From Clostridiales bacterium (GTDB taxonomy: Bacteria > Bacillota > Clostridia > Oscillospirales > Oscillospiraceae): 53,174 nt of DNA. The position numbers and the translations under genes are program-made. The notes beneath the pieces are model-generated. The model did no database searches. It saw only the letters and a list, made by a program, of their open reading frames with translations, and was not told where the DNA came from. Where the stretch lies: NCBI GenBank assembly GCA_021202515.1, contig JAJQCW010000079.1, positions 1 to 53,174 of the forward strand, written 5' to 3'. This document shows positions 4,235 to 53,174 of the stretch, in pieces; position 1 is the stretch's first letter; every line of letters begins with the position of its first letter.

Positions 4235-5088
4235 GAAAGAACGGATTTTTTGCCCGTCTGGGCCTGATTCTGACGATGATTTTCCTCTACGCCCCCATCG
4301 TCGTCCTCATCGTCTTTTCCTTCAACAGCTCCAAGAGCCGCACCGTCTGGACGGGCTTTTCCCTCCAGTGGTATGTGGAACTGTTTGACGACAGCCGCAT
4401 CCTCAGCGCCCTGGCTACCACCCTGGAGGTCTCGGTGCTGGCGATGGTGTTCTCCACCGTGCTGGGCACGGCGGCGGCCATCGGCTTCTACAATATGCGC
4501 AAGCGCCCCCGGACGGTGTGCATGGCCATCAACAACATCCCCATGACCAATGCGGATATCATCACTGGCGTCAGCCTGATGCTGCTGTTTGTGTTCGCCA
4601 TCGGCGCGTTCAACTCCACGTTGGGGCAGTTGACAGGCGTCACCCTGAAACTGGGCTTCGCCACCCTGCTGCTGGCTCACATCACTTTCGACATCCCCTA
4701 TGTCATCCTCTCGGTGTTGCCCAAGCTGAACCAGTGCGACCCCAACATCGAGGAGGCCGCGCTGGACCTGGGAGCCACCCCCTGGCAGGCGTTCTTAAAG
4801 GTGGTGCTGCCGGAGATTCAGCCCGGTGTGCTGAACGGGGCAATTATGGCCTTTACCATGTCGGTGGATGACTTCGTCATCTCCTATTTCACCGCCGGTT
4901 CCAGCACCTCCACCCTGGCCATGGAGGTCTACTCCATGACCCGCAAGCGCATCAGCCCGGAGATCAACGCCCTGTCCACCCTGATGTTTGTGGTGGTGCT
5001 GAGCCTGCTGGCTATCGTGAACATCCGCTCGGCCCGGCAGGAGAAGGCCGCCGCTGCACGGGCGGCCAAGCTCCAGGGGAAGGGTTAA
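4231..5088 (+). CDS. potC: Spermidine/putrescine ABC transporter permease, second subunit
   Basis: Second permease subunit, about 285 residues with six predicted membrane segments. An EAA loop is visible as EEAALDLGATPWQAFLKVVLPEI, which is the PotA docking site in this family. Translation begins at TTG 4231, overlapping the potB stop as TTGA, with a GAAGAGGGGG ribosome site at 4211-4220. The C-terminus is charged (RSARQEKAAAARAAK) and probably cytoplasmic. A coupled start fits equimolar production of the two permeases. Confidence 0.92.
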   Translation: MRKNGFFARLGLILTMIFLYAPIVVLIVFSFNSSKSRTVWTGFSLQWYVELFDDSRILSALATTLEVSVLAMVFSTVLGTAAAIGFYNMRKRPRTVCMAINNIPMTNADIITGVSLMLLFVFAIGAFNSTLGQLTGVTLKLGFATLLLAHITFDIPYVILSVLPKLNQCDPNIEEAALDLGATPWQAFLKVVLPEIQPGVLNGAIMAFTMSVDDFVISYFTAGSSTSTLAMEVYSMTRKRISPEINALSTLMFVVVLSLLAIVNIRSARQEKAAAARAAKLQGKG

Positions 5089-5142: not shown

Positions 5143-6189
5143 ATGAAAAAAGTATTCCTGTTCGCCCTGTCCCTGTCTCTGCTGCTGTCCCTGACCGCCT
5201 GCGGCGGCGGCAGCTCCACCACCAACGGGGAGGTCAACGTCTACAACTGGGGCGAGTATATCGACGAGGACCTGCTGGAAGAGTTTGAGGAGGAGACCGG
5301 CATCAAGGTCAACTACACCACCTACTCTGACAACGAGTCCATGTACTCCACCCTGAAAAACGGCTCCGCCGAGTACGACGTCATCATCCCCTCGGACTAC
5401 ATGATCTCTCGGCTCATCGAGGAGGACATGCTGGAGACCATCGACTTCGACAACGTCCCCAACTTCGCCAACATCGACGATGATTATAAAAACCTGGACT
5501 ATGACCCCACCAACGAGTACTCCGTCCCCTATATGTGGGGCGTGGTGGGCATTGTCTACAACACCACCATGGTGGATTACACCCCCACCAGTTGGGACGT
5601 GCTGTGGGATGAGGACCTGAGCGGCCAAATCCTCATGTTCGACAACAGCCGGGACGCCATCGGCATCGCCCTGAAAAGCCTGGGCTACAGCTACAACACC
5701 ACCGACGAGGCGGAAATCGTCGAAGCGGTGGATAAGCTCATCGAGCAGAAGCCTCTGGTGCAGGCCTACGTCATGGACCAGATTTTTGACAAGATGGAGG
5801 CGGGCGAGGCCGCCGTGGGTCCCTACTACGCCGGGGACGCCATCACCATGATTTCCGAGAACCCTGACCTGGCCTTTGTGTTCCCGGAGGAAGGCTCCAA
5901 CTACTACGTGGACGCCATGTGCATCCCCAAGGGCGCCGCCAACAAGGAGAACGCCGAAGCGTTCATCAACTTCATGTGCGAGCCGGAGGTCATGGCCGCC
6001 AACGCCGAGGAAATTTACTACTCCACCCCCTCCTCCGCCGCCAAAGAGCTGTTGGAGGACGAGCTGAAAGACAGCGACATCGCCTATCCCGCCCAGGAGG
6101 TCATGGACAAGGCTGAGGTGTATATCAACCTGCCGCAGACTGTGCTGGACCTCTACGACGAGGAGTGGATTCGCCTCAAGGCCGCATAA
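5143..6189 (+). CDS. potD: Polyamine-binding lipoprotein PotD, copy 1
   Basis: Extracytoplasmic substrate-binding component of the PotABC importer, 348 residues. The N-terminus is a lipoprotein signal peptide (MKKVFLFALSLSLLLSLTAC) with the lipobox Cys at residue 20, so the protein should be tethered to the outer face of the membrane. NVYNWGEYI begins the mature fold, as in PotD/PotF. The operon order and a GAGGG ribosome site 54 bp after potC put it in the same transcript, ended by a hairpin at 6202-6223. It is strongly similar over its full length to the gene at 6522. Confidence 0.92.
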   Translation: MKKVFLFALSLSLLLSLTACGGGSSTTNGEVNVYNWGEYIDEDLLEEFEEETGIKVNYTTYSDNESMYSTLKNGSAEYDVIIPSDYMISRLIEEDMLETIDFDNVPNFANIDDDYKNLDYDPTNEYSVPYMWGVVGIVYNTTMVDYTPTSWDVLWDEDLSGQILMFDNSRDAIGIALKSLGYSYNTTDEAEIVEAVDKLIEQKPLVQAYVMDQIFDKMEAGEAAVGPYYAGDAITMISENPDLAFVFPEEGSNYYVDAMCIPKGAANKENAEAFINFMCEPEVMAANAEEIYYSTPSSAAKELLEDELKDSDIAYPAQEVMDKAEVYINLPQTVLDLYDEEWIRLKAA

Positions 6190-9868: not shown

Positions 9869-11167
9869 ATGGAACCGAGCGAACAAACCAAATCCCTCCG
9901 GGAACGCTGGGAAGCCCACCCCCTGCTGGGCTGTCTTCTGCTGTCCCTGGCGCTGGGAGTGGCGGGCGGACTGGTCTTTCTGATTTGGAACGCCGCCAAC
10001 AGCACCTTTCTGATGGCGAGGGACTTTCTGGTGGAGTGTCTGTTCTGGTGGCTGCTCAGCGCGGCAGGCATCAGCCTGTTTGTGGCCCCGCCGCTGGTGC
10101 TGACCGCTGCGGAGGTCTACCTGCTGGTGGTGGCCCGGAAGCGGGAAGCCCTCTACGCCAGAGGGCGGGGCATCGACATCGTGACCATTCCGCTGGGGGT
10201 GGTCTACAGCGTGCTGCTGCTGAGTGTGCTGAACGTGGTGTTCACCGACTGGACGGAGACCCTCTCCAACGCCGAGAAGCACACGCCTCTCTGGACCCAG
10301 GCGTGGCCCACGGTGGGGTGTATCGCGCTGGCGGCCTGTCTGGGCTATGTGCTGGTGAACTTTCTCCCGCTGGAGCGAACGCCGCCGCTGGCGTTGGTGC
10401 TGGGCTTCGCCGGGATGTATCTGGGCACGGCGGAGAGCCTGGTTTGGGCGGTGCAGATTTTCTCCCCCAATCCGCTGTATCTGCCGCTGCTGCTCCTGCC
10501 GTTGAACTGTGTTCTCATCACTGCCCGCACCGTTCTCCACAAGGTCTGGGCGTGGAACCATCTGGAAGCGGGCCGAACGCGGCAGTATTCCCGCCCCTGG
10601 CTGCAAAAAATCAACGATTTTCTCTCCCACTCCGCCCGCTGGCCGGTGCTGGCGCTGGTGCTGATGTGGCCGCTGCTGGGAATCCTCATCGCCCTGCTGG
10701 TGCTGCTGGGGCAACAGCCGGACGCCATCATCAAGGCGTTCACCGAGACCAGCGACTGGAACCTCTCTCAGCAGGTCGCGCCGCAGAACATCTACTATGA
10801 CGAGCATTACCTCTGCACCGTGGCGGCGGGAGGTCACCGCAAGGTGGTGAAGCCCCTGCGCATGGGCGTTCGCCACGGCCACCCGGTCATCGTCAACCGA
10901 CAGCTCTGCGTCGCCAACGCCTTCGAGCAGGTGCTGGAGGAAAAAACGCCCCGGTTCCACCGGGCGGTCCGGGGGTTTTACGACAAGTACGGCTTCCCGG
11001 TGGCAAAGCTCATCCGCTCCCGATACGTGGCGGATGGGGTATATTTTTTGATGAAGCCGCTGGAATGGCTGTTCCTGCTGGTGTTATACCTGACCGACGT
11101 GAACCCGGAGGACCGCATCGCCATTCAGTACACGGGAGCGAAGCTGTCGGATTTTGTTAGAGTGTAA
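9869..11167 (+). CDS. Membrane protein with conserved C-terminal domain, DUF6688-like
   Basis: Function unknown. The 432-residue protein has about six or seven hydrophobic segments in its first 290 residues. A soluble conserved region follows (about 295-390, with YYDEHYLCTVAAGGH and MGVRHGHPVIVNRQLC), then a final hydrophobic stretch and TDVNPEDRIAIQYTG. I recall this C-terminal pattern from proteins labelled DUF6688, but cannot confirm it here. ATG 9869 has GAGGGAG eight bases upstream. The gene lies between two pyrophosphatase paralogs and 15 bp before a 74-aa gene with which it is probably cotranscribed. Confidence 0.75.
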   Translation: MEPSEQTKSLRERWEAHPLLGCLLLSLALGVAGGLVFLIWNAANSTFLMARDFLVECLFWWLLSAAGISLFVAPPLVLTAAEVYLLVVARKREALYARGRGIDIVTIPLGVVYSVLLLSVLNVVFTDWTETLSNAEKHTPLWTQAWPTVGCIALAACLGYVLVNFLPLERTPPLALVLGFAGMYLGTAESLVWAVQIFSPNPLYLPLLLLPLNCVLITARTVLHKVWAWNHLEAGRTRQYSRPWLQKINDFLSHSARWPVLALVLMWPLLGILIALLVLLGQQPDAIIKAFTETSDWNLSQQVAPQNIYYDEHYLCTVAAGGHRKVVKPLRMGVRHGHPVIVNRQLCVANAFEQVLEEKTPRFHRAVRGFYDKYGFPVAKLIRSRYVADGVYFLMKPLEWLFLLVLYLTDVNPEDRIAIQYTGAKLSDFVRV

Positions 11168-15944: not shown

Positions 15945-16198
15945 CTGTAATGGCTTTGATGGGAAGGAGTACGCGCCCTCCCCTGTTTTGCAGAGAGCGG
16001 CCGGATGGTGAAAGGCCGCAGGCAGGCGGCGCGGAAGGTCGTCCCGGAGTTCTGTCTCTGAACTTTGCAGTAGGAGACGGCGGCGCCCACCGTTATCGGG
16101 TTTGAGTGCGGGGCAAGGTCGTCCCGAATTCAGGTGGTACCGCGGAAAAGCGCCCTTTTCGCCCTGAACAAGATTTGTTCAGGGCGTTTTTATTTTTT
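15945..16198 (+). ncRNA. T-box leader (valine) of valS
   Basis: Senses uncharged tRNA-Val and permits read-through into valS. Stem I shows the GAGTA and CAGAGAGC elements on its 5' side and GAAGGTCGTCCCGGAG on its 3' side. GTC at 16038-16040 is the probable valine specifier. The T-box core AATTCAGGTGGTACCGCGG is at 16127-16145. The terminator is a 12-bp hairpin (16160-16171/16175-16186) followed by GTTTTTATTTTTT-type sequence. A 12-base block, AAGGTCGTCCCG, occurs both at the specifier strand and just before the T-box core. Confidence 0.92.
16160..16198 (+). terminator. T-box-controlled terminator before valS
   Basis: Stem CGCCCTGAACAA/TTGTTCAGGGCG with a three-base loop and a following T-run; mutually exclusive with the antiterminator formed by the T-box core. 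Confidence 0.9.
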
Positions 16199-45633: not shown

Positions 45634-45710
45634 GGAGGCTTAGCTCAGCAGGTTAGAGCGCTTGCTTCACACGCAAGAGGTCGAGAGTTCGAGTCTCCCA
45701 GTCTCCACCA
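45634..45710 (+). tRNA. tRNA-Val (anticodon CAC)
   Basis: 77 nt. Acceptor GGAGGCT/AGTCTCC, anticodon arm CTTGC-TTCACAC-GCAAG (CAC), encoded CCA. It is the last of the operon and borders the prophage. Confidence 0.95.
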
Positions 45711-45789
45711 CAGGGGAATCAAGCGAACCCTACCATATACTTTATTGGTACATTGTTCGTTTTGGCCCTTCCGCTCCCAAAGGAGTAAC

Positions 45790-45834: not shown

Positions 45835-46164
45835 CTACATCGCATTCTCCGAGTTCAAGTAAACATACATCATCGCCAGAAACTCCCCTGTCTCCGGCTT
45901 ATGTGCTAGTGGTCTCCCTGCAATCTCCGCCATGTATGCTGGATTTGCCTCCCACGCCCGCCTGATTACGGTCCGCAGGTTCCGCTCCACCGCTGTCCAG
46001 TTCTTTCCGGTGGCCTGTCCTACCGGTGCGTAGATGCACCGCGCAAGGGCGGTCAACCGCGCTGGTTCCTCCAATGCCAGCCGGAGTGCAAGGTACATTT
46101 CCCGGCAGCCCGTGTAGTTAGGACAGATACCCAAGCGGTGCAAAGTAGTTTCGATTTTGTTCAT
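45835..46164 (-). CDS. Stand-alone Spo0A C-terminal-domain DNA-binding protein
   Basis: 109 residues. It matches the effector domain of Spo0A without the receiver: LHRLGICPNYTGCREMYLALRLALEEPARL, then IYAPVGQATGKNWTAVERNLRTVIRRAWEANP, where the recognition helix of Spo0A would be NWTAVERNLRT. The preferred start is ATG 46164 with GGGAGG; the upstream open frame is not conserved. Without a receiver it would bind DNA constitutively, and 0A-box-like sites lie in its own upstream region. It may couple the prophage to host sporulation, either as a repressor of host sites or as a sensor-independent regulator (inference). Confidence 0.8.
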   Translation of the reverse strand: MNKIETTLHRLGICPNYTGCREMYLALRLALEEPARLTALARCIYAPVGQATGKNWTAVERNLRTVIRRAWEANPAYMAEIAGRPLAHKPETGEFLAMMYVYLNSENAM

Positions 46165-46412: not shown

Positions 46413-47393
46413 TCAGCTGTTAGGCAGTACTACCACCAGAATGGGGCTGTTCTTTGTGTACCCAGATGTCAACGCAACCTCTGTGTATGTACCCTTCCCG
46501 GCGGTCATCTGCTCCGCCCAGTTGTGGCAGGCGTAGATGATACCGTCCCCACCGCAGACGGCAATGTTGCTGTCCTGAATATAGAAGGCGCCCTTAACCT
46601 TATACTTGCTTGGTAGGGCAGCGTAGTTTTTCGCGCCCACGTAAGTCACGGCGCATTTGGTCAAGTCCAGGTTATTGTATCCGGTCATGGACTTGGCGAT
46701 GGTCGTCTTGGTTTTCAGGATGTCGCCGGATGCGGCGGCCTTGTGGCTGATCCGCTTCCCATCCGGGAGGATTCCTGCCAGCACCGCCACGCGAGTAGCC
46801 GGGATAGAGCAGTTGACCTTTTTATCCTTCATGGCTGTTGGCCATGTGTAGGACCCGCTCACGTGCTTACAGCCCAGGCAGGATTCGTATACATCCGCCA
46901 CGTTTGCCGCCGCCAGTTCCAGCGGCGTCTTTTTCGCCGTGTAGACATCCAGGTCAGTCAGGTTCAGCCAACCCACTCCGGATTTAAGGTAGCCGTAGGG
47001 AGACTTCACCTCGGTGATGGTGTAGGTGCCTTTCTTTGCCGTCCCCGCCTTTGTCACGCCGTCTGTGGCGGTGTAATAGGCGGTGCTGGAGGTCAGGGAC
47101 ACCATAAACGGCACGGGATACCGGGGGACACCGAGGTAATCGTATACCTTGTAACCGTCATTTTTGTCCACCAGCGCTGTGGCATTGGCGTAAACGGAGA
47201 AGGCCCCCAGTTGGGAATCCTCATCGTTCCAGGACTTCCGAACCCGGAAGAAGGCTTTGTAGACGGTGTTCCCGTTCTCATCAAAAACGATGTAGTCCGG
47301 GTTCTCGTCCACCACGGCCACGGCGTTGGCCAGAACCTCATAGGCCCCCAACTGTGTGCTGGCAGTGTTCCAGTCTTTTCGTACTCTGTACAT
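46413..47393 (-). CDS. Phage cell-wall-active protein with two VRxSW repeats
   Basis: 326 residues. The first 90 are two tandem repeats of about 45 (VRKDWNTASTQLGAYEVLANA and VRKSWNDEDSQLGAFSVYANA), a cell-wall-binding-like repeat seen at the ends of clostridial phage lysins. A beta-rich SH3-like segment (about 95-150) follows. The C-terminal part has NCS at 194-196 and SHK near 216, then NIAVCGGDGIIYACHNW near 280. That arrangement resembles NlpC/P60-type cysteine peptidases, but the usual catalytic His seems to be Asn, so activity is uncertain. It follows DUF6275-like and lysozyme genes in the lysis module. Confidence 0.65.
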   Translation of the reverse strand: MYRVRKDWNTASTQLGAYEVLANAVAVVDENPDYIVFDENGNTVYKAFFRVRKSWNDEDSQLGAFSVYANATALVDKNDGYKVYDYLGVPRYPVPFMVSLTSSTAYYTATDGVTKAGTAKKGTYTITEVKSPYGYLKSGVGWLNLTDLDVYTAKKTPLELAAANVADVYESCLGCKHVSGSYTWPTAMKDKKVNCSIPATRVAVLAGILPDGKRISHKAAASGDILKTKTTIAKSMTGYNNLDLTKCAVTYVGAKNYAALPSKYKVKGAFYIQDSNIAVCGGDGIIYACHNWAEQMTAGKGTYTEVALTSGYTKNSPILVVVLPNS

Positions 47394-47408
47394 TCAGCCC
47401 ACCTCCCG

Positions 47409-47672
47409 TTACTTAATCAAGAAGTTCTTCCACTTCTTGTAGGCGTCCACATAGCCCTCCTGCTTGTCGCCGTTCCAAGTGACCTCGTAGTACATCCCAT
47501 CTGAGACAGTCGTGGACAGGAGGGCCTTGTTGTTCTGGAGAACTTTGACCATCCAGACAATAAACACGTCTGCCGCCGTGATATGTCCGTTTTTGTCGGT
47601 GCTATCGGCCTGCGAATTGAAATAATCCACAACGGCCTGAATCGCTTTCGCCCGAAATTCGTTTTCCTGCAT
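47409..47672 (-). CDS. Small phage protein, DUF6275-like
   Basis: 87 residues. Its pattern (AIQAVVDYFNSQADSTDKNGHITAADVFIVWMVKVLQNNKALLSTTVSDGMYYEVTWNGDKQEGYVDAYKKWKN, quoted here only in outline) matches a small conserved protein family I recall as DUF6275, found beside phage lysis genes. Key recognisable blocks are VFIVWMVKVLQNNKALLST and GMYYEVTWNGDK. Ribosome site GGAGGGG precedes its ATG. Function unknown, possibly accessory to lysin or tail. Confidence 0.65.
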   Translation of the reverse strand: MQENEFRAKAIQAVVDYFNSQADSTDKNGHITAADVFIVWMVKVLQNNKALLSTTVSDGMYYEVTWNGDKQEGYVDAYKKWKNFLIK

Positions 47673-47687
47673 GGTATTCCCCTCCTA

Positions 47688-48569
47688 TCAGGTCGTCAGA
47701 ATCGCGGTCCAGGTATTCTGGCCGCAGATCCCGTCAACAGTCAGTCCTTGGGCGGTTTGGTATCTCTCAACCGCTGATTCGGTCTTGCTGCCGAAAAGCC
47801 CGTCGGTGGATAGGCTGGAACTTTTGCTCTCTTTTACCTTCAACAGCGCCTGGAGACTCGTCACCTCAGCTCCGCTGCTGCCGTTTTTCAGCGTGGAAAG
47901 TGTACTCACGTCAAACCCTCCTGTGGTCGTAGTCGTTTCTGTTGTCGTGTTGGTTTCGCTGGTGTTGTCTGTGCTTCCGGGCAGATTGTACATGTAATTC
48001 ATGTCGCATCTCCCGGAGACTCCACTGACGCTGCCGGAGCTGGAATACTGCCAGATGTCATACGAAACAGGGCATGTGCAGCTACTGGCGTACTGCGCTG
48101 CCCAAATCGAGTAGCTGGTAAGCTCCTCGGCGTTGAGCTGCGACTTGAACCAACTGGAGGAGGCATAGATTCCAGGCAGATACCCGGCAGCTTCGATGAC
48201 ACTGGCGAACTTCTTGCAGATGCTCGTCCGCTTGGCGGTGGTCAGCGCAAGAATCTTCGCCTCATACTCCTGGTCAAAGTAAATCGGCAGATCCAGTTCT
48301 TTATCTCCGACACACTCCAGGCAGGTTTCTGCCTCGGCTTTCGCGCCGCTGGTAGTTGTCGCGTAGCTGTACCAGTATACTCCGACAAGCAAACCAGCAG
48401 CTTTCGCACCAGCGTAGTTCGTTTCAAACTTCGGGTCTTTTTGGCTGGTGGACGACCCATATCCAGCACGAATGATGGCAAACTTGATGCCGCTTGCTGC
48501 GGCCTTTTCCCAATCGACGGCGCCTTGCCACTTCGACACGTCGATTCCACGATAGATAACGCTGCTCAT
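47688..48569 (-). CDS. GH25 endolysin (muramidase) with peptidoglycan-binding domain
   Basis: 293 residues. Hydrolyses the MurNAc-GlcNAc bond for phage release. The GH25 domain spans 5-200: GIDVSKWQG at 8-14 with Asp10, the catalytic pair Asp99/Glu101 in IYFDQEYE, and AQY and DIWQYSSSG near the end of the barrel. A Thr-rich linker (205-225) leads to a peptidoglycan-binding domain (LKNGSSGAEVTSLQALLKV...TDGLFGSKTESAVERYQ). No signal peptide is present, as expected for a holin-dependent lysin. The ATG overlaps the stop of the preceding small gene (ATGA). Confidence 0.93.
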   Translation of the reverse strand: MSSVIYRGIDVSKWQGAVDWEKAAASGIKFAIIRAGYGSSTSQKDPKFETNYAGAKAAGLLVGVYWYSYATTTSGAKAEAETCLECVGDKELDLPIYFDQEYEAKILALTTAKRTSICKKFASVIEAAGYLPGIYASSSWFKSQLNAEELTSYSIWAAQYASSCTCPVSYDIWQYSSSGSVSGVSGRCDMNYMYNLPGSTDNTSETNTTTETTTTTGGFDVSTLSTLKNGSSGAEVTSLQALLKVKESKSSSLSTDGLFGSKTESAVERYQTAQGLTVDGICGQNTWTAILTT

Positions 48570-48742
48570 CCCAGCAACCCCGCTTCGGACATCTGTCCGG
48601 CCTTTTCAGCGATAGCCCCCAAGTTGTCCTCATAGAAGGTCACAGCTTCCTCAATAGTCATGTTCTCCTTCTCAGCGACTTCTCCCGCGTCATATCCGAT
48701 AGCGTAAGCCCTAATGATGTCGGCTCTCGTTTCTTCGGTCAT
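48566..48742 (-). CDS. Small phage protein between holin and endolysin
   Basis: 58 residues, acidic, predominantly helical (ADIIRAYAIGYDAGEVAEKENMT). It starts at ATG 48742 behind AAGGAGG and overlaps the endolysin start by four bases, so it is translationally coupled to lysis. IRAYAIGYDAGEVAEKENMTIEEAV reads like a small helix-turn-helix-type sequence. Family not recognised. Confidence 0.7.
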   Translation of the reverse strand: MTEETRADIIRAYAIGYDAGEVAEKENMTIEEAVTFYEDNLGAIAEKAGQMSEAGLLG

Positions 48743-48759
48743 AGTGCGTTCCTCCTTAC

Positions 48760-49413
48760 TCATTCGTCGGTGGTAGTTTCGTCAGCAGAGTCGCCTTCAT
48801 CGACCTCTTCATCGGTTTCCTCGTTATCAGTTTCCTGCTCGGTATTCTCCTGTGTGTCATCGTATGCTTCCGATGCGTCAGAAGCGGTGTCAGACTCAGT
48901 AGCAGTCGGTTCATCAGTGATTTCGTCAACAGAGGCGGTGTCCTCGGTTTCGTCAGTGACGCCATCGTTGCCAGTGTCATCTTCTTCCTGCTCAGCAGCC
49001 TTCTGCGTGACAGTTCCGATAGCATCCGCGATAGCGGCAACGGCTTCGGAGAGAGTGGCCGATGTGGTCTGCTCATCCGTGGAGCCGGTGGTCACAACGA
49101 TGCCAAACAGCGCGGTCAAGCGCTCCGGCGCAAGGTCCGGGTTGATTTTGCAAAAATTCTCCAATATGGACATAATCTCCATCGCGCCGATGTAAGAGCA
49201 GACCGCCGCCGCAGCCGGGATGGAGATGCCCAGGTCAATGAATCCCTGAGCATAGTCCGCCAGGCAGCCCAGAGCCATGAGCAGAATCAGGCTTGCTTTC
49301 TTATACAAGCCCTCCCGCATGACAGTGGAAGAGAGCGTACCGGTGGCGGCACCCTTAACGATGCCGGTGATAAAGTCCAGCGCAATAAGCGCAAAAGCAA
49401 CTAAGTACATCAT
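48760..49413 (-). CDS. Phage holin with long acidic C-terminal tail
   Basis: 217 residues. Residues 1-100 have three hydrophobic segments with the small-holin pattern LDFITGIVKGAATGTLSS and GLYKKASLILLMALGCLADY, as in the toxin-secretion/phage-lysis holin family. It forms the membrane lesion that lets the endolysin reach the wall. The C-terminal roughly 100 residues are almost entirely Asp, Glu, Thr and Ser, which is unusual; most family members end shortly after the third helix. AAGGAGG precedes ATG 49413. Confidence 0.88.
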   Translation of the reverse strand: MMYLVAFALIALDFITGIVKGAATGTLSSTVMREGLYKKASLILLMALGCLADYAQGFIDLGISIPAAAAVCSYIGAMEIMSILENFCKINPDLAPERLTALFGIVVTTGSTDEQTTSATLSEAVAAIADAIGTVTQKAAEQEEDDTGNDGVTDETEDTASVDEITDEPTATESDTASDASEAYDDTQENTEQETDNEETDEEVDEGDSADETTTDE

Positions 49414-50717: not shown

Positions 50718-50894
50718 TTACTCCTCCTCGCTTTCCTCGGTGGTGGTGGTTTCGTCGTCGTCCTCCTCCAGCTCAACGTCGGTCATCATGGCGATGTAGT
50801 CCACATTTGCTTGCAGGACGGCGACGGCGGCCAGGTTGTCCTCTTGTTGCCGCTGCTGCCTCACGCTGGTTTTCATCTTCTGTACGATGCTCAT
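50718..50894 (-). CDS. Small acidic phage protein overlapping the reverse transcriptase end
   Basis: 58 residues: a basic start (MSIVQKMKTSVRQQRQQED), a helical middle (NLAAVAVLQANVDYIAMMTDVELE) and a Glu/Thr-rich tail. This layout is common for small tail-assembly-region proteins that precede XkdX. It has its own ATG (50894), and 122 bp of it overlap the 3' end of the reverse transcriptase gene in another frame. Function unknown. Confidence 0.65.
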   Translation of the reverse strand: MSIVQKMKTSVRQQRQQEDNLAAVAVLQANVDYIAMMTDVELEEDDDETTTTEESEEE

Positions 50895-51951
50895 TGTTTT
50901 CGTCCCCTTTCCACAGGTCTTTATAGTGTTTGTCCATACGTTTCAAAAGGTTCGCGCTGTTGCCGTGCTGGGCGTGGGCGCGCCACGACTGGTAACAGCC
51001 GTCAACCTTTCGTTTTGTGATTTTCCCTTGCTTTGCCATGGCAACCATGCGGCGGAGTTTCTTCCTCTCCCCCTTGACGTTGGCCGGGTCTATGATGCGG
51101 ACGACCTTGCCAGTGCTGGTCAGACGGTGGGTAAAGCCCAGCAGCTTGATTCCGTCCTTCAAAGGGTAAATCCGGGTTTTGGTCGGGTGCAGCTCAAACT
51201 CCATGCCGCTGAGATACTGCGCTATCTGCCGGTAGCAGGTTTCGAGGCATTCCCGGTTCTCGTGGATGAGGATAAAGTCATCCATGTACCGCAAGTACCA
51301 TTTGATACGCAGTTGTTCCTTGACGAAGTGGTCAAACGGACTGAGGACAGATATTCCGGCGATCTGTATCATCTGGCTGCCGGGGTTATATCCCACGTCG
51401 CCCTCATACTGATTCCGCAGTATGCTCTCTGTCCGCTCGTAGATAGTTGGCGGGAGCTGCTTTGCGAAGGTGGCCTCTGCTACGGCATGGCTCATGTTGG
51501 GGTAATAGCCGCGTATGTCGCCTTGCAGAACATAGCCGTCGGTTCCGTGTTTCCGGTAAAACTCGTGAAGGAACTGGTCGAGAATGTCCCTCGCAAAGTC
51601 GGTGCCTTTCCCTTTCTGACAGGCTGCATTGGTGCGGATGAACTGTTTACTCATGGCCGGGTATATCACGTTGTCATTAAGACTGCGCTGATACACACGG
51701 TCACGAAAGGCGATGCTTACGGCCTCGCGTGGTTTTGGATGCGTGATAAGGATTTTCTTCTGTGGGCGGGCTTTGTAGGTTCCGTCCTTTAGCTGCTTTT
51801 CCAGCCGCAGGGTTTCTTCAATTCCGTTCAGGCAGTAGTGCGCCACAGAATCTTTCCATCCCACGTTTGCCTTGCACCTGTACATGGACTGATACAGTGC
51901 GTCAAACCCTATCACGCTTTCCAGGAGTTCATCATCTTTTGATTTGTTCAT
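50773..51951 (-). CDS. DGR reverse transcriptase
   Basis: 392 residues. RT motifs in order: RDRVYQRSLNDNVIYP (motif 1-2 region), GDIRGYYPNMS (144-154, palm Asp), PGSQMIQIAGISVLSPFDHFVKEQL (190-214), and the catalytic LRYMDDFILI with YMDD at about 222-225, then HPTKTRIYPLKDGIKLLGF. The PGSQ segment has the SQ signature of DGR enzymes rather than the QGxxxSP of group II intron and retroviral RTs. There is no maturase or endonuclease domain. Residues from about 353 onward overlap a downstream small gene and look like accidental coding. It copies TR RNA with adenine mutagenesis into the VR. Confidence 0.93.
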   Translation of the reverse strand: MNKSKDDELLESVIGFDALYQSMYRCKANVGWKDSVAHYCLNGIEETLRLEKQLKDGTYKARPQKKILITHPKPREAVSIAFRDRVYQRSLNDNVIYPAMSKQFIRTNAACQKGKGTDFARDILDQFLHEFYRKHGTDGYVLQGDIRGYYPNMSHAVAEATFAKQLPPTIYERTESILRNQYEGDVGYNPGSQMIQIAGISVLSPFDHFVKEQLRIKWYLRYMDDFILIHENRECLETCYRQIAQYLSGMEFELHPTKTRIYPLKDGIKLLGFTHRLTSTGKVVRIIDPANVKGERKKLRRMVAMAKQGKITKRKVDGCYQSWRAHAQHGNSANLLKRMDKHYKDLWKGDENNEHRTEDENQREAAAATRGQPGRRRRPASKCGLHRHDDRR

Positions 51952-52109
51952 AATGTGCTTATGAGAGATTAAAATGGGTCTGCGCCGTATATAGCTCCCA
52001 TATGCCCCCTTATGGGGTAGATGCTTGCATCGGCACAGTGTTGTTTAGCCTTTCGGCAGGGATTTCGGCTCCTTGTGTTAATTGTTCGGGTACACCGGCC
52101 CTACGGGTC

Positions 52110-52263
52110 GGCTATTCATACCCTTATGCACACAATCCGGGGCGAAGCGATTCGCGTTGCTCGCGTTGTTGTTGTTGACGTTGCCGGAGCTGTTCACGTA
52201 CCACGTATTGTAAGCGTTGCTACGATTCGCGGAGCGCAAACGGACGTTCTGCGCTGAATAGCC
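52110..52263 (-). repeat. 9-bp inverted repeat flanking the template repeat
   Basis: GGCTATTCA at 52110-52118 and its complement TGAATAGCC at 52255-52263 bracket the TR, overlapping its 5' end by three bases. In the TR-containing RNA they could form a stem that holds the TR as a loop. The 180 bases from TR to RT also contain a CCCTACGGG hairpin and other GC-rich structure. Confidence 0.65.
52131..52257 (-). repeat. DGR template repeat (TR)
   Basis: 127 bp, non-coding. Aligned with the VR at 52839-52968 it is identical except at 11 adenines (sense strand) plus a run of four AAC codons where the VR has five NNC codons. Adenines are concentrated at AAC/AAT codons, which can be mutated to many amino acids without stops. 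Confidence 0.95.
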
Positions 52264-52306
52264 TACATCCCATGTTTACCCGCGCCTGCGCGTTTGCGCG
52301 CGTATT

Positions 52307-52777
52307 TTAACACGCGCGAGCGTTAGGCGCGTTGTTTCCGCGTGTTTGTTTCTGGTCAGCGTACCGGCGGGTGTCCGATTCTTTCCAGCTTTTGAGCAGG
52401 TTTCGGACATCCACTGTTTTCTGACCCCAATATTTAATCCTCTTTGCCTTGAGGTGAAAAAGCCGCTGCGCCATTTGCATGAGGGCCAACAGCTTATTGC
52501 ACTTCCTGATGGCTCGTTCTTGGAGGTCTTTCCTTTCAGCCCGTTTCGCCGGGTTGACCTGCCCGTTGCCGTCCGTGACCCGGATGCTGTTTGCCTCCCA
52601 CGCCAGCAGGAAGATGTCTTTCGCGGTAGCAATAATATCGTCGGTCATCGCGCTTTGGTACTCCGGCAGAAAGACCTTTTGGTTGCTGCAAATCTTGATG
52701 GTGTAGATTGCAAGGTCGTTGGCCTTTGTGAAAACCTTCATCTTGCGCTGGCCGCGCTTTCCTTCTGGTACTGACAT
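52307..52777 (-). CDS. avd: Avd-like accessory variability determinant
   Basis: 156 residues, highly basic and helical, predicted four-helix bundle. Recognisable segments include VFTKANDLAIYTIKICSNQKVFLPEYQSAMTDDIIATAKDIFLLAWEANS in outline (key parts: DLAIYTIKICSNQKVF and DIFLLAWEANSI) and RKCNKLLALMQMAQRLFHLKAKRIKYWGQ. In the Bordetella phage system Avd forms a pentamer that binds RT and TR RNA and is needed for mutagenic homing. ATG 52777 follows AAAGGAGA. The stop lies 50 bp before the TR. A longer upstream frame overlaps the VR and is not coding. Confidence 0.88.
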   Translation of the reverse strand: MSVPEGKRGQRKMKVFTKANDLAIYTIKICSNQKVFLPEYQSAMTDDIIATAKDIFLLAWEANSIRVTDGNGQVNPAKRAERKDLQERAIRKCNKLLALMQMAQRLFHLKAKRIKYWGQKTVDVRNLLKSWKESDTRRYADQKQTRGNNAPNARAC

Positions 52778-52793
52778 TTTGTCTCCTTTGGTC

Positions 52794-52821
52794 ATCCCCG
52801 GCATCCGTGGGTGCCGGGGAT
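52794..52821 (-). other. GC-rich hairpin just downstream of the VR
   Basis: ATCCCCGGCA (52794-52803) and TGCCGGGGAT (52812-52821) form a perfect 10-bp stem with an 8-base loop. It lies 17 bp past the end of the VR. In the Bordetella DGR a hairpin or cruciform at this place stimulates target recognition; it could also act as a terminator. Confidence 0.75.
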
Positions 52822-52827
52822 TGCAGA

Positions 52828-53174
52828 TTAGCAGATGACACAAGCCGGGGCGAAGCGATACGCGCTGCTCGCGTAGGGGATGCCGTAGACGCTGCCGGAG
52901 CTGTTCACGCACCACGTAAGGTAAGCGCTGCTACGAAGCGCGGAGCGCAAACGGACGTACTGCGCTGAGGTCTGCGCGTTGATGGCATAGGTGACAGGAA
53001 AAGCCCCGGTCACACCGGTTTCGATGGTCTCTGACGAGCCAGTCGCCAGCTTCCAATATTCCCAGTAGTCGCCCTCCACACCGGCGAGCTGCGGAGTGAT
53101 GAACTGCTGCTCCAGGGAGGGGAGGAAGAACGTGTCGTAGGTGTCCTCGCTTGTGCCGTCGGCTGCGTCGGAAA
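52828..53174 (-). CDS. DGR target protein, C-terminal part (truncated by window end)
   Basis: The frame is open from the stop at 52828 to the right edge, so only about 115 C-terminal residues are visible. They read SLEQQFITPQLAGVEGDYWEYWKL, then VTYAINAQTSAQYVRLRSA, and end in YRFAPACVIC. This looks like a C-type-lectin-like fold, DUF6273-type, with the VR forming its last 44 residues. The invariant frame VNSSGSV and RFAPA around variable residues fits known DGR targets. Position before small tail genes suggests a tail-tip or receptor-binding protein. Apparent in-frame GTG at 53079 is not the start. Confidence 0.85.
   Translation of the reverse strand, partial: SDAADGTSEDTYDTFFLPSLEQQFITPQLAGVEGDYWEYWKLATGSSETIETGVTGAFPVTYAINAQTSAQYVRLRSALRSSAYLTWCVNSSGSVYGIPYASSAYRFAPACVIC
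52839..52968 (-). repeat. DGR variable repeat (VR) within the target gene
   Basis: 130 bp at the 3' end of the target gene. Sense-strand codon changes relative to TR: AAC to TAC, AAT to CTT (twice), AAC to AGC (three times), TAC to TGC, AAT to TAT, GAT to GCT; and TAC GGC ATC CCC TAC in place of AAC x4. The 3' end carries a conserved CGCTTCGCCCCGG stretch, the probable initiation-of-homing element. Confidence 0.95.

Follow-up and report, generated by a model that had tools for sequence, protein, structure and literature searches.

A diversity-generating retroelement at the end of a split prophage

The window analysed here is the whole of contig JAJQCW010000079.1 (53,174 nt, forward strand; assembly GCA_021202515.1) from a Clostridiales bacterium of the Oscillospiraceae, a gut bacterium. 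At its right end, on the minus strand, lies a full diversity-generating retroelement (DGR; 50773-53174), in which a target gene (T1) with its variable repeat (VR1), a hairpin, the accessory variability determinant gene (avd), a template repeat (TR) and a reverse transcriptase (RT) gene follow one another as a preliminary description of this DNA had reported (Table 1). Three contigs of one genome are considered: C71 (the window), C16 and C77 (also L011), from a draft assembly of 81 contigs with an estimated contamination of 3.15%. Judged from its sequence, the window is the end of a prophage split over all three. Coordinates without a contig prefix refer to the window.

Table 1. Positions of the DGR components, the two target genes and other prophage features
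Feature	Position	Strand	Remarks
T1, 3' end	52828..53174	-	DUF6273 (weak match, see text); 114 aa in window, cut by contig end
VR1	52838..52968	-	16 adenine substitutions relative to TR and one extra triplet
Hairpin 3' of VR1	52794..52821	-	10-bp stem, loop CCCACGGA
avd	52307..52777	-	PHROG_3206 'Avd protein of DGR', E 1.5e-13
TR	52130..52257	-	128 nt, 33 A
DGR-type RT	50773..51951	-	392 aa, intact; RVT_1 E 1.4e-10; PHROG reverse transcriptase E 8.7e-75
T2	C77:763-1371		202 aa; DUF6273 E 3.2e-10
VR2	C77:776-883		within T2; matches the same TR
Tail-fibre gene before T1	C16:34037-35161		PHROG tail fiber E 5.2e-25
T1, start	C16:35408-35774		about 0.55 kb missing between C16 and C71, judged from L014 homologue length
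Prophage right-end genes	46413..49413	-	including endolysin GH25 (47688-48569) and holin (48760-49413)
Spo0A_C-only protein	about 45838-46164	-	no receiver; Spo0A_C E 6.9e-20; between attachment core and lysis genes
Attachment core TCCACCACA	45704..45712	+	3' end of tRNA-Val (45634-45710); prophage to the right

The YMDD and PGSQ motifs ascribed to the RT are visible in its translation as RYMDD and YNPGSQ, and among solved structures the protein matches reverse transcriptase 8ub7 (E 1.5e-19), which we take to be the BPP-1 enzyme. avd had no Pfam match at E 0.1, and its best E against solved structures was 0.9. All 16 substitutions between TR and VR1 fall at TR adenines. There is one further difference, a 3-nt in-frame gap in an AAC run, where four AAC codons in TR face five codons in VR1, each derivable from AAC, as if copying had slipped or TR had later lost a codon. 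Adenine-directed TR/VR differences, an RT near TR, Avd and a hairpin 3' of the VR were all found, and taken alone the single-target DGR of the window is an ordinary phage DGR.

A second target of the same template

Searched with the VR region, the genome gave another match, at C77:734-883. It contains VR2, which lies within a small gene (T2), and this target had escaped the preliminary description because it is located on another contig. TR and VR2 differ at 16 positions, every one of them a TR adenine, with zero other mismatches over 108 nt, and the hairpin 3' of VR2 has a 9-bp stem and a loop, CCCACGGA, identical to that at VR1; the two stems differ by a compensatory pair. The final difference between TR and VR1 (GATTGT in TR, GCTTGT in VR) lies within the end common to VR1 and VR2 and resembles the difference between IMH and IMH* in BPP-1. 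Since the genome contains a single RT of this type, the window DGR is the likely editor of both repeats, and it is very probable that both are its targets on one prophage. In the inferred contig order TR and VR2 are at least 37 kb apart.

T2 itself matches PHROG_9958 (E 8.2e-11), a family whose function is not known. NCBIfam returned no match for T2, avd or the T1 fragment, and PADLOC, used to look for a link to defence systems, returned none for T2, for the gene adjoining it or for the T2 of G043, a related system that shares synteny with C16 and C71; the window RT matched many PADLOC RT models, as RTs generally do.

The contigs can be arranged as C77 (about 10370 to 1), C16 and C71 (53174 to 45713), which would make a prophage of about 54 kb at tRNA-Val. 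C16 (35,774 bp) encodes ParB, a replication initiation protein, a Holliday resolvase, terminase, baseplate and tail fibre; it is joined to C71 because T1 is split across both contigs, and to C77 because of the attachment ends and the synteny with G043. The core TCCACCACA recurs on C77, where a count by eye puts it at about 10362-10370, and imperfect repeats surround it at both prophage ends. We searched 31 other genomes of the genus; all have the C71 exonuclease gene, and 16 give a match to the C77 vWA gene. In three of these 16 (G005, G003 and G015) a single contig carries both genes, separated by tRNA-Val, -Glu and -Met. This is an empty site: homology to C71 stops at 45712, homology to C77 begins at C77:10336, and in each genome the two overlap by the same 30 bp at the 3' end of tRNA-Val. 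Because of this empty site we judged it unlikely that T2 is a host gene or part of another element. A serine recombinase open reading frame (ORF; C77:8713-10428) extends across the attachment core, so its last codons would be host DNA in the lysogen. Genes for tRNA-Pro and tRNA-Thr lie within the prophage at C77:1865-2019, directly before T2 in gene order.

Target 1 and the late module

The proposed location of the DGR in a late prophage module gained support from C16, on which T1 starts directly after the tail-fibre gene. A 421-aa homologue from locus L014 bridges the two parts of T1, its residues 4-123 matching the right end of C16 and its residues 309-421 the end of C71, and it is 69% identical to the window part. 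Checked against DUF6273, the window fragment of T1 gave a weak match (18.1 bits; curated cut-off, 23.5). In line with the lectin fold suggested for the target, a C-type-lectin-like fold is predicted for the L014 homologue; Foldseek against the PDB gave a single match below E 0.001. T1 is probably a C-type-lectin-like protein that presents a variable binding face on the virion. The earlier view that this phage probably diversifies host-surface binding may account for only one of two targets, since a further target fitting this TR lies at the opposite end of the prophage. The baseplate J protein of L014, used as a query, had no match in the genome studied here.

Distal second targets among gut-phage DGRs

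Relatives of the RT were found in Clostridia assemblies and virus contigs (97 loci), and the window DGR belongs to a clade of gut-phage DGRs. An adenine-tolerant scan of 42 of these loci (50-68% identity, except L023, L024 and L101 at 31-39%) detected a TR-VR pair in 36, seven of which have one to three non-adenine mismatches; it found none in L015, L017, L021, L024, L075 and L099. Stems of at least 7 bp within 75 nt 3' of the VR occur at 26 of 43 VRs, as against 46 of 2150 simple shuffles.

The search for distal VRs covered 26 DGR phages or prophages, comprising 11 IMG/VR records, four contigs or parts of contigs from metagenome-assembled genomes (MAGs), ten phage-collection records and the prophage described here. 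Three records were covered in part (G041, first 20 of 21.4 kb; Lelie, 1-50000; Toutatis, 5001-54725), and the sample is not random, the ten collection records having been chosen mostly from the top of 102 with an RT match. A distal VR2 in a small protein was present in ten of the 26, namely the prophage described here, G043, G050, MT835491, nd12, nd4, Lelie, Shimadzu, Toutatis and Brigit. Of the 126 mismatches between TR and VR2 in the ten systems taken together, 124 fall at TR adenines, a pattern that the scan itself rewards, and in every system the 5' end of VR2 lies 10 to 54 nt inside that of VR1.

Because adenine mismatches are rewarded, shuffled TRs were taken as a control. None of 36 shuffles (four per TR, nine systems) scored 15 or more in the phage's own sequence, which for the prophage described here meant the window; the true VRs of the other eight systems scored 53 to 93, with one split-off piece at 33. 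Ten shuffles of the Brigit TR reached at most 13, as against 58 for its VR2. In 80 cross-genome scans, high scores arose only between the close relatives Lelie and Toutatis (104, both ways); the next were 30 (the TR described here in G043), 28 and 21. Where both VRs of a phage have a hairpin, the loops are identical in the prophage described here, MT835491 and G050, and alike in G043 (CACC, CACT) and Shimadzu (CTCGT, CTATGT).

In Brigit (NC_047909.1; L202), VR2 lies at 4373-4445 in gp06 (203 aa, PHROG_9958) and carries seven adenine substitutions and no other mismatch over 73 nt. Record MT835477.1 (L187; 84.7 kb), in which no RT match was found, encodes a T2 homologue at 4295-4867, directly before a DNA methyltransferase gene. 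The MAG contig G037 has two large targets side by side instead of a distal small one. L020 has two large adjoining targets beside the RT, with VRs at 4617-4740 and 5917-6038 from the same TR.

Relationships and genomic position of the small targets

Nine of ten T2s scanned (Toutatis left out) match PHROG_9958 at E 0.001, three of them weakly (3.6e-5 to 7e-4); the T2 of Shimadzu matches PHROG_21980. When the VR is removed, 10 of 11 T2s have their best match in a T2 from another phage, the exception being Shimadzu T2, which is closest to Lelie T1; the T2s of Lelie and Toutatis are identical outside the VR and so enter this count as near-copies. An origin of T2 as a recent copy of T1 is unsupported by these matches for the same 10 of 11. 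On the tree, the T1 and T2 labels require 3 changes against a shuffle mean of 8.6, and none of 500 shuffles is as low. The T2s form two groups, not one clade, and T1 and T2 of Shimadzu cluster together. A viral-contig search for further T2 relatives found one with query A2 and two with Lelie T2, and none with the T2s of MT835491 or Shimadzu.

In the prophage described here, the neighbours of T2 are genes for ParB, replication initiation and Holliday resolvase, on C16 and thus across a gap of unknown size; in G043 a replication initiation gene adjoins T2. Elsewhere T2 is accompanied by a repressor, Holliday resolvase and helicase (G050), a primase and single-stranded DNA-binding protein (SSB; MT835491), methyltransferases, Erf, SSB and replication initiation (Shimadzu), the DNA polymerase III alpha subunit (nd4), methyltransferases and replication initiation within about 5 kb (Toutatis), or a transcriptional regulator, exonucleases and RecT (Brigit). 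The genes around T2 are unnamed in the Lelie record. According to Pfam, no T2 has a second domain beside DUF6273 except that of nd12, whose N-terminal DUF3310 is matched by phage nucleotide-kinase families, and a simple hydropathy count found no strongly hydrophobic N-terminus in ten T2s. The position of the genes, the lack of an evident virion part and the DUF3310 domain in nd12 suggest that T2 acts inside the cell.

Comparison with known two-target systems

As in Bordetella phage BPP-1, the cassette has the order target-VR, hairpin, avd, TR and RT and shows adenine mutagenesis; unlike BPP-1 it has a second, distant target, its targets are DUF6273 proteins and not Mtd, and its hairpin loop has eight bases.

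Two-target phage DGRs have been published, so the kind is already known. In Quimbyvirus one target follows tail fibre genes and a distal one, near defence genes, was considered probably non-structural by the authors (PMC8008677). The arrangement of a tail-fibre-side and a distal target is shared with our prophage, whereas Quimbyvirus has its second target on the opposite strand, close to genes for methyltransferases, a nuclease and a tRNA ligase, and its RT is in three frames (PMC8008677); here the RT is intact and, in the inferred contig order, T2 has the strand direction of the late genes. Phages nd4 and nd12 resemble it in having a small DUF6273 tgt2 with a VR2 from the same TR (PMC10743442), and our scan placed their VR2s in genes of the published lengths (234 aa; 297 versus 294 aa). 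They differ in that target 1 is a tentaclin with its VR near the start (PMC10743442), and their RTs are about 31-36% identical to that of the window. Receptor binding was proposed for both tgt2 proteins, and the terms replication, intracellular, cytoplasm and defense are absent from the main text of PMC10743442; the placement of the T2 genes suggests, contrary to that proposal, that T2 acts in the cell.

Faecalibacterium phages Lelie and CP11 likewise have a large and a small DUF6273 target, with a function that the authors describe as not fully clear (PMC11792537). Unlike here, a Hoc-like gene that follows the RT encodes target 1, the small target has a tail after VR2 and, in Lelie, no 7-bp hairpin was found. 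Roseburia phage Shimadzu, whose two targets are cited in PMC11792537, also combines a tail-fibre target with a target of 209 aa whose gene immediately precedes those for Erf and SSB; it differs from our prophage in the family and grouping of its T2 described above and in its RT, which is about 30% identical. Brigit is known for a Hoc-like DGR target (PMC5883640), and in the available part of that paper we did not find its second VR described. In the literature searched, as far as it was available, we found no account in which a location of the small target among genes for regulation and DNA metabolism is described as a shared feature, which is no proof that it is unpublished. A large metagenome survey could, by its own statement, not detect remote targets (PMC8144416), and such targets may therefore be undercounted.

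A model for diversification of two targets and its alternatives

If the element is presently active and retrohomes by the steps known from BPP-1, the avd-TR-RT region would be transcribed, and RT and Avd would copy the TR RNA into cDNA with errors at adenines. This cDNA would replace sequence in the variable repeats of both T1 and T2, guided by the 3' stretch common to the two VRs and by the hairpin 3' of each. T1, encoded after the tail-fibre gene, would supply a variable binding face on the virion. T2, a small DUF6273 protein in which neither a signal peptide nor an additional domain is evident, would be expressed from an early region with regulators, partition and replication genes, and would most likely be a variable binder of host or competitor molecules in the infected or lysogenic cell. 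We consider this whole account, with one template, two targets, the tRNA-Val prophage of about 54 kb and an intracellular T2, somewhat better than an even prospect. More tentatively, and with confidence a little below even, we suggest that in temperate gut phages a single mutagenic template serves to diversify a virion binder together with a small early intracellular protein, and that such a hypervariable binder, for example of changing host defence proteins or competing phages, has been retained in distantly related gut phages.

Several observations weigh against the two-target account with an intracellular T2. Gene position is no proof of the place of action, and the nd12 record names no genes around T2 and hence no DNA-metabolism neighbour. 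The C16-C77 junction is known by inference from synteny, and neither the RT (at E 1e-60) nor T2 (at E 0.001) was found in any of the 31 further genomes from the genus. A distal VR2 is lacking in 16 of the 26 systems, so T2 is optional. In four of the nine two-target systems compared (Lelie, Toutatis, nd4 and nd12; Brigit excluded) a stem of at least 7 bp was found at neither VR; VR2 lies inside the gene in these four. The structure model of G043 T2 was poor (mean pLDDT 55) and was not used.

T2 could instead follow the proposal made for nd4_tgt2 and nd12_tgt2 (PMC10743442) and be a second, Mtd-like receptor-binding protein of the virion, produced early or under a promoter of its own. DUF6273 is common to T1 and T2, that domain of tgt2 was modelled as a C-type lectin fold in the same paper, and a single TR is the source of both VRs. 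The T2 genes lie, however, outside the structural module and mostly beside regulatory or DNA-metabolism genes, their products have no second Pfam domain apart from DUF3310 in nd12, and outside the VR 10 of 11 are nearest to the T2s of other phages and not to T1s; we regard a virion role as unlikely, though it deserves serious weight. It is less probable still, and in our judgement doubtful, that VR2 is a relic or passive copy, with T2 having received VR sequence once and without selection for variation. Such an origin would fit the absence of T2 from most systems scanned and the consistent start of VR2 inside VR1, and present activity at the VRs of this prophage is itself presumed. It fits poorly with VR2s that are near-perfect to their own TR outside adenines, even with a scan that rewards this, in phages otherwise sharing little, and with the variation in the second VR among cognate genomes of Lagaffe_CP and CP11, the latter having a small DUF6273 target (PMC11792537). 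A binning error, or derivation of C77 and VR2 from another element, would leave the window DGR with a single target. The draft state and estimated contamination of the assembly leave room for this, and the vWA and exonuclease genes are on different contigs in 13 of the 16 genomes that have both (vWA near the contig end in G019, G017 and G018). We nevertheless hold it to be very improbable, given that the flanks join at tRNA-Val with the same 30-bp overlap in three genomes, that VR2 fits the window TR with zero non-adenine mismatches and that in G043 a replication initiator comes right after a homologue of T2.

The usual reading of a phage DGR is that it diversifies binding proteins of the virion. 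Were the same template to rewrite an early intracellular protein as well, phages could evolve an interaction inside the cell on demand, and its partner could be searched for. Some of the phages listed have cultured hosts, which makes the two-target idea testable; Lelie is an induced prophage (PMC11792537).

Other features of the window

The preliminary description placed a Spo0A-like regulator next to the DGR and proposed a pairing of the two. The gene is 4.6 kb and seven minus-strand ORFs away from the RT, and of 26 related phage records, 25 of which have a DGR RT and many of which are fragments, not one contained Spo0A_C. The genome contains five Spo0A_C matches, the prophage-end gene included, and the phage collection gave three weak partial ones, one in Faecalibacterium phage Aster. 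On the record count and the five genomic copies we rejected the Spo0A_C protein as a DGR partner, and its proximity to the element looks incidental. In the host part of the window, a T-box leader is present at 15947-16160 (132 bits).

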